Source of the DNA: an uncultured Nitriliruptoraceae bacterium
GTDB lineage: Bacteria; Actinomycetota; Nitriliruptoria; Nitriliruptorales; Nitriliruptoraceae
Length of the DNA stretch: 64,000 bases
Assembly: GCA_913060655.1 (NCBI GenBank)
Contig: CAJXTG010000003.1
Location: 1-64,000 of the forward strand
Direction of reading: 5' to 3'
The notes beneath the pieces were generated by a model that saw only the letters and a list, made by a program, of their open reading frames with translations, was not told the origin of the DNA and did no database searches. This document shows, in pieces, positions 21,459-28,525 of the stretch; the first letter of the stretch is position 1, and every line of letters starts with the position of its first letter. Position numbers and translations under genes: made by a program.

Positions 21459-22271
21459 ATGACGCTGCGCGTGGGGATCATCGGGGTCGCCGGCCGGCTC
21501 GGGTCCGTGCTCGCCGCCGGTCTGGACGCTGCGGACGGGCTCGAGCTCGTCGCCGGGGTCTCGCCGGCCCACGCGGGGCGGCCGCTCGGTGACGTCGTCG
21601 GGGCGCTGCCGGAGGGCGCCCCCGCTGCGGCGACACCGGTCGGCGCCGACCTCGACGCACTGCTGGACGCCGGCGTCGACGTCGCCCTGGAGGTCACCGG
21701 TCCGGCGACGGTCGGCACCCACCTGCGCTGGCTGCTCGAGCACGGCGTCCACGCGGTCGTGGGTGCCACCGGCCTGAGCGATGCCGACCTCGACGCCGCC
21801 CGCGCGCTCGCGGCGGCGTCACCCGCCAATGCGGTCATCGCACCGAACTTCTCCCTCGGTGCGGTGCTCGTGGAGCGCTTCGCGGCGGAGGCCGCCCGGC
21901 ACCTGCCGCACGTGGAGATCGTCGAGCTCCACCACGACGGCAAGGTCGACGCGCCGTCGGGCACGGCGATCGCGACCGCCGCCGCCGTCGCGCGGGCGCG
22001 CGGTGACGACGCGCCCGCGCCGGCCGGCACGTCGGGACCGGCGGTCGTCGACGGTGCACGCGGCGCGACCGTGCACGGCGTCCCCGTCCACGCCGTGCGG
22101 CTGCCCGGGCTCGTCGCCCACGAGGAGGTCCTCCTCGGCGGTGAGGGACAGCTGCTGACGTTGCGGCACGACACGACCGACCGGTCCGCGTTCGTCGCCG
22201 GCGCGGTGCTCGCGTGCCGACGGGTCGGCGACGTGGGCGGGGTGGTCGTGGGGCTGGGCGAGCTGCTCTGA
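21459..22271 (+). CDS. dapB: 4-hydroxy-tetrahydrodipicolinate reductase
   Basis: Second committed step of the diaminopimelate/lysine pathway, using NAD(P)H. The 270-residue protein shows a Rossmann start (VGIIGVAGRLG), the GATG-type segment VVGATGLSD, APNFSLGAVL, and the catalytic ELHHDGKVDAPSGTA with its His-His and Lys. ATG 21459 follows GGAGGGAGGA at 21445-21453. dapA (27.6 kb) and dapF (45.9 kb), which act before and after it, are on the same segment but in separate units. Confidence 0.96.
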   Translation: MTLRVGIIGVAGRLGSVLAAGLDAADGLELVAGVSPAHAGRPLGDVVGALPEGAPAAATPVGADLDALLDAGVDVALEVTGPATVGTHLRWLLEHGVHAVVGATGLSDADLDAARALAAASPANAVIAPNFSLGAVLVERFAAEAARHLPHVEIVELHHDGKVDAPSGTAIATAAAVARARGDDAPAPAGTSGPAVVDGARGATVHGVPVHAVRLPGLVAHEEVLLGGEGQLLTLRHDTTDRSAFVAGAVLACRRVGDVGGVVVGLGELL

Positions 22272-25914: not shown

Positions 25915-27525
25915 GTGGCAGGGGTCGATGTGGTGGACGGTCCGGACGGAGTGGCTGGTCCCGACGCCCGCCGGGACGTCCTCGCGCGCTACCTGACCGA
26001 TCCCGACGGGGACGTGTTCGCCCTGACCGGGCTGCCCGAGGTCGTCAAGGGCGCCGTGTTCGCACGGTACTCCCGGTCGGCGTCGGGCGTGAAGGACCTC
26101 CTCGTCGACGAGTTCGCGAGCGACCTGGCGACCGACGGGGTCGCGGAGCGGGCGGACGCCCTCTACGCGAAGGTGTTCGGGGACTACGGGGACGACTCGG
26201 TCGCCCAGCTCGGCGGCGCGCACGTCGCGCTCGAGGGCATCTCGAACGTCGCGACGAAACGGGTCGAGTGGGGTCGTCTCGCCGCCTACCTCGAGCAGTC
26301 GACCCGCTACATCGCCTACGACCAGCGGGTCGGGGGGCGGTACCGCTACCACCGTGAGGCGTCGGTGATGGCGTCGCGCCATGCGGCCCGGTACGAGGAG
26401 GTCCTCGACCACCTCTTCGCCACCTACGCGCAGCTGCTGCCACCGCTGACCGAGTGGGTCCGCGGTCGCTTCCCCCACGACGAGGGGACGAGCGAGCGCG
26501 CCTGGCGCGCGGCGACCCGCGCGAAGGCGCTGGACCTGCTGCGTGGGCTGCTGCCCGCCGCGACGGAGGCGAACGTCGGCATGTTCGCCTCCGGACAGGC
26601 CTACGAGGCGCTGCTCCTGCGGCTGGCCGCCGACCCGCTCGTCGAGATGCGGGAGCTCGGTGACCGGCTGCTGCACGAGCTGCGCAAGGTCATCCCGTCG
26701 TTCGTCGCCCGCGTCGACCGTCCCGACCGCGGCCACGTGTGGCGCGACTACCTGGCGGCCATCCGTGACGACACGCGCGCCCTCGCCGACCGTCACGTCA
26801 TCGGCGACCCCGATCCGTCCGTCGAGCCGGTGACCCTCATCGACTGGTGGCCGCGCGATCCGGTCGACGCGGAGGTGTCGCTCGTCGTCGGGACGCTGCT
26901 GCCGCACGTGACGGTGTCGGAGGAGCAGCTCACCGCGCAGGTCCGCACCTGGCCGGCCGAGCAGCGCGCCGAGGTGCTGCGCGCCGCCGTCGGGGAGCGC
27001 GTCAACCGTCGGCACCGTCCCGGGCGGGCGTTCGAACGGGTCGTCTACCGCTTCGACGTGCTGGGGGACTACGGCGGCTTCCGCGACCTGCAGCGGCATC
27101 GCATGTGCACGATCGACTGGCAGCGGCTCACCACCGTCCACGGGTACGACACGCCGCCGGAGCTCGCCGAGGCCGGTCTCGACGGACCGTGGCACGAGGC
27201 GATCGGTCGGGCGCGGGCCCTGCACGACGACCTCGCCGTCGACCTGCCCGAGGCCGCCCAGTACGTCGTGCCGTTCGCGTTCCGTCTGCGCTACTCCGTG
27301 CAGCTGAACGCGCGGGCGGCCATGCAGATGCTGGAGCTCCGCTCGACCCCGCAGGGGCACCCCCAGTACCGCCGCATCGTCCAGGCGATGCATCGGGCGA
27401 TCGCCGACGTCGCCGGCCACACGGCGGTCGCCGACGCGATGGTCCACGTCGACCACGGGGTGGGGGACCTCGAACGGCTCGCGTCCGAGCAGGCCCTCGA
27501 GCGACGTCGCGCCGCCCGCGGATGA
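25915..27525 (+). CDS. Tandem ThyX-fold protein (FAD-dependent thymidylate synthase homologue)
   Basis: 536 residues with two ThyX-like halves. The first (about 40-270) has the LEQSTRYI motif (126-133) and a helix AATEANVGMFASGQAYEALL, but no RHR. The second (about 370-510) has RHRMCTIDW (394-402) and the helix NARAAMQMLELRSTP (465-479), but lacks the serine that follows RHR in the canonical RHR-x7-S motif. ThyX methylates dUMP using FAD and methylene-tetrahydrofolate; here each half keeps different parts of the site. Proteins of this double length are known to me only as uncharacterised ThyX homologues, so catalytic activity is uncertain. The start could also be GTG 25930, which has AGGGG upstream. 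Confidence 0.75.
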   Translation: MAGVDVVDGPDGVAGPDARRDVLARYLTDPDGDVFALTGLPEVVKGAVFARYSRSASGVKDLLVDEFASDLATDGVAERADALYAKVFGDYGDDSVAQLGGAHVALEGISNVATKRVEWGRLAAYLEQSTRYIAYDQRVGGRYRYHREASVMASRHAARYEEVLDHLFATYAQLLPPLTEWVRGRFPHDEGTSERAWRAATRAKALDLLRGLLPAATEANVGMFASGQAYEALLLRLAADPLVEMRELGDRLLHELRKVIPSFVARVDRPDRGHVWRDYLAAIRDDTRALADRHVIGDPDPSVEPVTLIDWWPRDPVDAEVSLVVGTLLPHVTVSEEQLTAQVRTWPAEQRAEVLRAAVGERVNRRHRPGRAFERVVYRFDVLGDYGGFRDLQRHRMCTIDWQRLTTVHGYDTPPELAEAGLDGPWHEAIGRARALHDDLAVDLPEAAQYVVPFAFRLRYSVQLNARAAMQMLELRSTPQGHPQYRRIVQAMHRAIADVAGHTAVADAMVHVDHGVGDLERLASEQALERRRAARG

Positions 27526-27610: not shown

Positions 27611-28525
27611 GTGAGCCCACGTACGGGAACGGACGCCGTCGGACGGGTCGTGACGGCGCTCGCGACACCGTTCACCCCCGACGGGGCGCTCGACCTCGAC
27701 GGGGCCGCGACGCTCGCGCGGCACGTGGTCGCCACCGGCTCCGACGGCCTCGTCCTCGGGGGGACCACCGGCGAGTCCCCGACCCTGCGGGACCCCGAGC
27801 TGTGGGACCTCGTCGCCGCGGTCCGCGCCGCCGTCGGCACCGACGTGCGGCTCACCGTCGGCACCGGGACGAACGACACCGCACGGTCGGTGGAGCGCAC
27901 CGAGCGGGCGCAGGCCGCCGGCGCCGACGCCGTGCTCGTCGTCACCCCCTACTACAACCGCCCGTCCCAGGCGGGGCTCGTCGCGCACTTCTCGAGCGTC
28001 GCCGCGGCGACGGACCGGGCCGTGCTGCTCTACGACATCCCGTCGCGCACGGGCCGGGAGCTCGACGTCGCCACCCTCGCGACCCTCGCGGCCGTCCCCA
28101 ACATCGTCGGGGTGAAGGATGCGACGGGCCGGGCCGACAGGGCCGCGGACGTCCTCGTCGCCACCGCCGGCGCACCGGGCGGCTTCGCCCTCTGGTCCGG
28201 CTCCGACGAGCTGAACCTGCCGCTGCTCAGCGTCGGTGCGGTCGGGGTCGTGTCCGTCGCCGCCCACCTGGCGGGACCGGAGATCGCCGAGATGGTCGCC
28301 GTGCACGACCACGACCCGGTCCGAGCCCGCGCGCTGCACCTGGCCTGCATGCCGCTGCACCGGGCCCTGTTCCTCGACCCGAACCCGGGGCCGCTGAAGG
28401 CCGGCCTGCGGGCGCGCGGCCTGCCGGCCGGGCCGGTGCGCCCCCCGCTCGCCGACGCCGGGGACGAGGTCGCCGCCCGGGTGGTCACCGCGCTCGCGGC
28501 CCTCGAGGCGCAGCGCGACCGATGA
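27611..28525 (+). CDS. dapA: 4-hydroxy-tetrahydrodipicolinate synthase
   Basis: Condenses pyruvate with aspartate semialdehyde, the first committed step towards diaminopimelate and lysine. The 304-residue TIM barrel carries LGGTTGESPTL (49-59), YYNRPSQ, the catalytic Tyr141 in YDIPSRTG and the Schiff-base Lys169 in GVKDATG. GTG 27611 follows GAGGAGGG at 27597-27604. The rnj start is 57 bases downstream; the dapA-rnj pairing is common in actinobacteria. Confidence 0.96.
   Translation: MSPRTGTDAVGRVVTALATPFTPDGALDLDGAATLARHVVATGSDGLVLGGTTGESPTLRDPELWDLVAAVRAAVGTDVRLTVGTGTNDTARSVERTERAQAAGADAVLVVTPYYNRPSQAGLVAHFSSVAAATDRAVLLYDIPSRTGRELDVATLATLAAVPNIVGVKDATGRADRAADVLVATAGAPGGFALWSGSDELNLPLLSVGAVGVVSVAAHLAGPEIAEMVAVHDHDPVRARALHLACMPLHRALFLDPNPGPLKAGLRARGLPAGPVRPPLADAGDEVAARVVTALAALEAQRDR

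Follow-up and report, generated by a model that had tools for sequence, protein, structure and literature searches.

We report a tandem ThyX protein from an uncultured member of the Nitriliruptoraceae whose two halves hold complementary parts of the canonical ThyX active site. The protein is predicted to be a flavin-dependent thymidylate synthase that works as an obligate pseudo-dimer of two sub-functionalised domains, a reading to which we assign a probability of about 0.83. The ThyX enzyme is essential and serves as a drug target; its mechanism has been explained by residues drawn from three identical subunits.

Gene and domain architecture

The window, by which we mean the whole stretch of 64,000 nucleotides that was analysed (contig CAJXTG010000003.1), had been noted in a first-pass annotation to encode a tandem ThyX at positions 25915 to 27525. 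This was borne out, as an open reading frame occupies exactly these positions and the Pfam Thy1 model (PF02511) matched its 536-aa product twice, with 112 bits in total against a cut-off of 24.8. The gene and its two domains are as follows.

25915..27525, + strand: tandem ThyX gene, 536 aa, from GTG at 25915 to a stop codon ending at 27525 (open reading frame and translation)
26062..26700, + strand: half 1, N-terminal Thy1 domain, residues 50-262, the dUMP/lid half (Pfam and genome search)
27001..27414, + strand: half 2, C-terminal Thy1 domain, residues about 363-500, the FAD half (Pfam and genome search)

Each half was also recognised on its own at the same cut-off of 24.8 bits, with residues 1-262 scoring 57.8 bits (match 50-262) and residues 263-536 scoring 58.1 bits (match about 362-500). 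When the profiles of the two halves were compared directly, no significant match resulted, and their kinship is drawn from the match of each to Thy1. The NCBIfam thyX equivalog TIGR02170 gave the window protein 43.1 bits, below its cut-off of 87.9, so that this model alone would not name it ThyX; the protein is a member of the Thy1 superfamily and not a canonical ThyX. On reading the sequence around the start, we found no good ribosome-binding site for GTG 25915, and AGGGG lies 5-8 nt upstream of GTG 25930 and GTG 25933. The true start may be one of these two codons, either of which leaves both Thy1 domains intact.

Predicted structure

Searching the whole tandem protein against the sequences of the PDB returned only matches to H. 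pylori ThyX at E values of 0.03-0.06, and a comparison of folds was therefore required. An AlphaFold model built with 94 sequences had a pLDDT of 89.9 and a pTM of 0.89, suggesting that the two-domain arrangement is confidently placed. With Foldseek, all of the 50 matches listed per model were ThyX at a probability of 1.00, and among these the TMt reached 0.74 for the better model. These predictions support a ThyX fold for the tandem protein; the lack of any structural match to ThyX, which the first-pass annotation had named as a refuting result, was not what the comparison returned. The top Foldseek match of the first model was Thermus thermophilus Thy1 (PDB 6j61), which is an elongated ThyX like the tandem protein and whose title names an extra C-terminal domain; judged by title and length, its matched chain of ~240 residues leaves no room for a second full Thy1 domain.

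The two halves divide the canonical active site

The canonical ThyX site is built by three subunits, of which A supplies RHR and Arg199, B supplies Ser71 and Arg190, and C supplies Arg87, Ser105, Arg107 and the lid Tyr108 (PMC6514825). The sharing of residues in PBCV-1 ThyX, where Gln75 and Arg182 come from one monomer and Ser88 from another (PMC3498832), agrees with this partition. We assigned residue equivalences by profile alignment to segments of M. tuberculosis and H. pylori ThyX, and counted conservation over 94 aligned tandem proteins, namely the window protein and 93 others homologous along their entire length, drawn from Nitriliruptoria, Acidimicrobiia, Chloroflexota and others. The following positions carry the argument.

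26269..26277, + strand: W119-G120-R121, degenerate RHR position of half 1 (profile alignment to canonical ThyX)
26293..26310, + strand: E127-Q-S129-T-R131-Y132, dUMP/lid motif of half 1 (E127, S129, R131 and Y132 in 94/94)
26542..26544, + strand: R210, invariant Arg of half 1 (94/94)
27094..27102, + strand: R394-H395-R396, RHR motif of half 2 (94/94; equivalents of M. tuberculosis R95/H96/R97)
27307..27315, + strand: N465-A-R467, FAD-phosphate motif of half 2 (N465 and R467 in 94/94; equivalents of Asn188/Arg190)
27340..27342, + strand: R476, dUMP-activating Arg of half 2 (94/94; equivalent of Arg199 in M. tuberculosis and Arg174 in T. maritima)

The first-pass annotation had described half 1 as keeping EQSTRY without RHR, and half 2 as keeping RHR without the Ser that follows it, and both descriptions held. 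EQSTRY occupies residues 127-132, and its S129, R131 and Y132 align with Ser105, Arg107 and Tyr108 of M. tuberculosis ThyX. At the RHR site of half 1, Gly stands at the His position (G120) in 93 of the 94 proteins and position 119 is Trp in 88 and Arg in 6, though the last Arg of the motif is still present as R121. The RHR of half 2 (residues 394-396) is followed by MCTIDWQRLTT, without Ser-x-Arg-Tyr. Half 1 has S226 and Q228 at the position of N465 and R467, with Gln at the Arg190 position in all 94, and its R236, kept in 92/94, may be a remnant of Arg199.

Elsewhere in the pocket, the Ser71 position is occupied by S95 in half 1 and R371 in half 2, the Arg87 position by N111 in half 1, and at the place of the folate-site His (T. 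maritima H53) the alignment puts D93 of half 1 and P369 of half 2. Given these departures, the folate/FAD pocket must differ in detail. Taken whole, the tandem protein contains the canonical catalytic residues, with the exceptions of Arg87 and the folate-site His. An RHR motif and a following Ser-x-Arg-Tyr within one chain segment were found in the canonical proteins of the phylum (L124-L143) but not in the tandem. The split motifs were also read in 80/80 loci from a scan run independently over bacterial genomes, which spanned Nitriliruptoria, Acidimicrobiia, Chloroflexota and others, and among 17 further tandem loci across the phylum the half 1 motif was present in 17 and the half 2 motif in at least 15.

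The equivalents of RHR, R190 and R199 are therefore in half 2 and those of Ser105, Arg107 and Tyr108 in half 1; neighbouring subunits of canonical ThyX are reported to share the work along the same line. The tandem protein shares the Thy1 fold with canonical ThyX (FDTS; T. maritima TM0449, M. tuberculosis and H. pylori), and both have the FAD/RHR and Ser-x-Arg-Tyr residues and occur in genomes without thyA and folA. By contrast, canonical ThyX is a single chain of 215-260 aa that holds all the residues and forms a homotetramer with four identical sites, whereas each tandem chain has two diverged domains that hold complementary parts of the site.

The same residues bear on whether one half might be catalytically dead, serving a structural or regulatory role, with the other half working through a non-canonical site of its own, for example in a symmetrical half 2-half 2 arrangement. 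Half 2 alone has RHR, N465/R467 and R476, enough on paper for FAD, and its conserved WQxL segment (W402 in 94/94) could replace the missing Ser-x-Arg-Tyr. However, S129, R131 and Y132 of half 1 are invariant in the 94 proteins and are kept also in distant Bacillus-phage tandems, and such exact retention of the dUMP/lid residues is not expected of a dead partner. With invariant catalytic residues in both halves, a dead partner, which the first-pass annotation had offered as an option, is improbable.

The tandem gene occupies a thyX position

In the window, the genes run in the order pnp, dapB, a TPR-like gene, an ABC transporter (other strand), tandem thyX, dapA, rnj and ftsK. The dapA and dapB genes were named by family models, and the other neighbours by reading their translations (the RNase J-like gene being called rnj).

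21459..22271, + strand: dapB, upstream in the same cluster (TIGR00036, 194 bits)
27614..28525, + strand: dapA, directly downstream of tandem thyX (TIGR00674, 250.7 bits)

Canonical thyX genes of Actinomycetota likewise adjoin dapA-rnj, as seen in two actinobacterial loci (L137 and L141) where thyX is followed by dapA and rnj. In related loci dapB adjoins thyX: genome G018 has a canonical ThyX beside dapB, and genome G026 has a 286-aa ThyX of the type 'THR-x-FSRNS-x-SSRAIP' between dapA and dapB. With tandem, canonical and THR-type proteins all present at the dap locus, forms of ThyX alternate at one locus. Most tandem genomes of Acidimicrobiia and Chloroflexota did not show this gene neighbourhood within 3 kb, which limits the synteny argument to the window's own lineage and some others.

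The THR-type protein constitutes a third form of ThyX of about 290-300 aa, with THR in place of RHR (NTHRVFSRNSSSSRAIP), and is the sole Thy1 gene in genomes G039-G042, G023 and G026 (L116-L120). A further genome, G022, appears to hold both the THR-type and the tandem ThyX, and G133 carries two different tandem ThyX genes (L146 and L147), one of them near dapA.

The tandem is the only recognisable thymidylate synthase in the tandem genomes tested

The genome search for canonical thyX or thyA that the first-pass annotation had proposed was carried out, and neither was found in the organism's own genome. This genome (96.6% complete) has a single Thy1 gene, and searching it gave no match to ThyA, DHFR or thymidine kinase; the idea of a further, canonical ThyX or of an overlooked ThyA was rejected. 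It does encode dCTP deaminase and thymidylate kinase, the steps that flank the conversion of dUMP to dTMP. All 31 diverse tandem-carrying genomes gave exactly two Thy1 matches each, with ThyA in 0/31 and DHFR in 0/31. Both the organism's own genome and 31/31 tandem genomes, many of the genomes examined being drafts, have the tandem gene as their sole recognisable thymidylate synthase. ThyA yields dihydrofolate and so needs DHFR, and ThyX does not; tandem genomes that lack both ThyA and DHFR therefore bear the signature of ThyX chemistry.

Across the class Nitriliruptoria, two or more Thy1 matches were present in about 50 of the 66 genomes by hand count. ThyA was found in three of the 66, as a full gene (G030), a fragment (G012) and a weak match (G023), and DHFR in G030 and G012, with a sub-threshold match in G024. 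In G030 (contig C9, L121), thyA adjoins folA and the genome is without any Thy1, and the tandem is present in three genomes of the same genus; thyA-folA in G030 is a natural replacement of the tandem ThyX. The thyA fragment and folA of G012 lie on a short stretch (contig C181; L033 and L115), although the tandem is present in this genome too, and may represent contamination or a recent arrival. The G023 match scored 27 bits over positions 88-209 of 266 and, on a reading by eye of the open reading frames in that stretch, was not taken as a full ThyA.

These genomes also bear on the proposal that the tandem uses its flavin for another reaction or methylates uracil in another substrate, such as a different nucleotide, while the cells obtain dTMP through some unrecognised pathway or by salvaging thymidine. 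PolB, described as a C-5 methylase that acts on UMP (PMC5003785), is a precedent for methylating uracil in other substrates; thymidine kinase is present in 22 of 41 related genomes, and the tandem falls under the ThyX equivalog cut-off. Against this, nine near-complete tandem genomes (G001-G003, G006, G011, G013, G021, G028 and G031, with G003 in a single contig) gave no match to ThyA, DHFR or thymidine kinase, thyA-folA takes the tandem's place in G030, and the tandem occupies the thyX position beside dapA-rnj. Organisms without ThyA, canonical ThyX, DHFR and, in some cases, thymidine kinase still need dTMP, an essential precursor of DNA, and a different flavin reaction, also raised in the first-pass annotation, is accordingly disfavoured and very unlikely.

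Distribution and origin of tandem ThyX

The tandem architecture of about 540 aa recurs in more than a hundred independent assemblies, among them the single-contig chromosomes L108, G003 and G046, and homologues are about 47-83% identical to the window protein by alignment. Carriers with a species name include Ilumatobacter nonamiensis and Candidatus Lucifugimonas marina. The notion that an ordinary ThyX was misread, because the start was wrong, the frame shifted or adjacent genes were joined, draws on the uncertain start codon and nothing else, and we give it next to no credence, since this recurrence and the conservation across 94 proteins rule out a misread start, frameshift or domain border as well as chance.

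A main-type tandem with 41% identity was also seen in a Parabacteroides plasmid record (L164), a 278-kb circular record assigned to Bacteroidota. More distant tandems share about 21-26% identity with the window protein and carry no annotation beyond thymidylate synthase. They come from Bacillus and Paenibacillus plasmids and from viral contigs (together L165-L175), and from phage Tunturi_5 (L161), whose protein gave no match when searched against viral contigs. Like the window protein, this Bacillus-phage type has Ser-x-Arg-Tyr in half 1 and RH(N)R with the Arg199 equivalent in half 2. Unlike it, the equivalents of N188/R190 are in half 1 (TANGRAW) and not in half 2, with only the Arg present in Tunturi_5. 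The role of the third subunit (Asn188/Arg190) thus appears, from these alignments, to sit in different halves in the actinobacterial and Bacillus-phage lineages. The Bacillus-phage type also keeps GHSSVAEH in half 1.

In a tree that included 11 canonical ThyX proteins, the half 1 sequences grouped together and the half 2 sequences likewise, with support of 100/98 for each group. Such separate groups are consistent with one tandem ancestor for both lineages, to be read with caution given the long branches, above all those of the Tunturi_5 rows.

Proposed mechanism and implications

We favour the pseudo-dimer because the kept residues fit the partition between canonical subunits, because they are invariant in both halves, and because the tandem is the sole recognisable synthase. 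The first-pass annotation had suggested that a pseudo-dimer might still assemble one site; these three lines strongly favour that suggestion, the assembly of the site being itself a prediction. In the proposed mechanism, dUMP and CH2-THF would be converted to dTMP and THF via FAD. Half 2 would act as the FAD-holding subunit, its RHR binding FAD and R394 and R476 touching dUMP, and half 1 as the neighbouring subunit, whose S129, R131 and lid Tyr132 would cover dUMP and flavin. Two chains would form a pseudo-tetramer of two half 2 and two half 1 domains, and the 222 symmetry of the canonical tetramer would fit half 2 at A and B and half 1 at C and D. There would probably be two chains per pseudo-tetramer and two active sites instead of four, two of the ancestral homotetramer's four sites having been lost. 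More broadly, we put at even odds the proposal that the tandems form a distinct and widespread structural class of thymidylate synthase, working as an obligate, asymmetric pseudo-tetramer that lost two of its four sites through duplication, with two lineages derived from one tandem ancestor and N188/R190 in different halves reflecting two domain placements around a shared site.

Databases already label such tandem proteins as FAD-dependent thymidylate synthase or ordinary ThyX. Our search of open-licence papers on tandem or split ThyX found no description of the split, which is weak evidence of absence. In the tandem, the contributions of the subunits are physically parted into two domains that are not interchangeable. 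With the roles in separate domains, each can be mutated independently and the sites can be counted, which the homotetramer does not permit. Much of Nitriliruptoria and Acidimicrobiia, and some Chloroflexota, apparently rely for thymidylate synthesis on an enzyme that the equivalog model misses.
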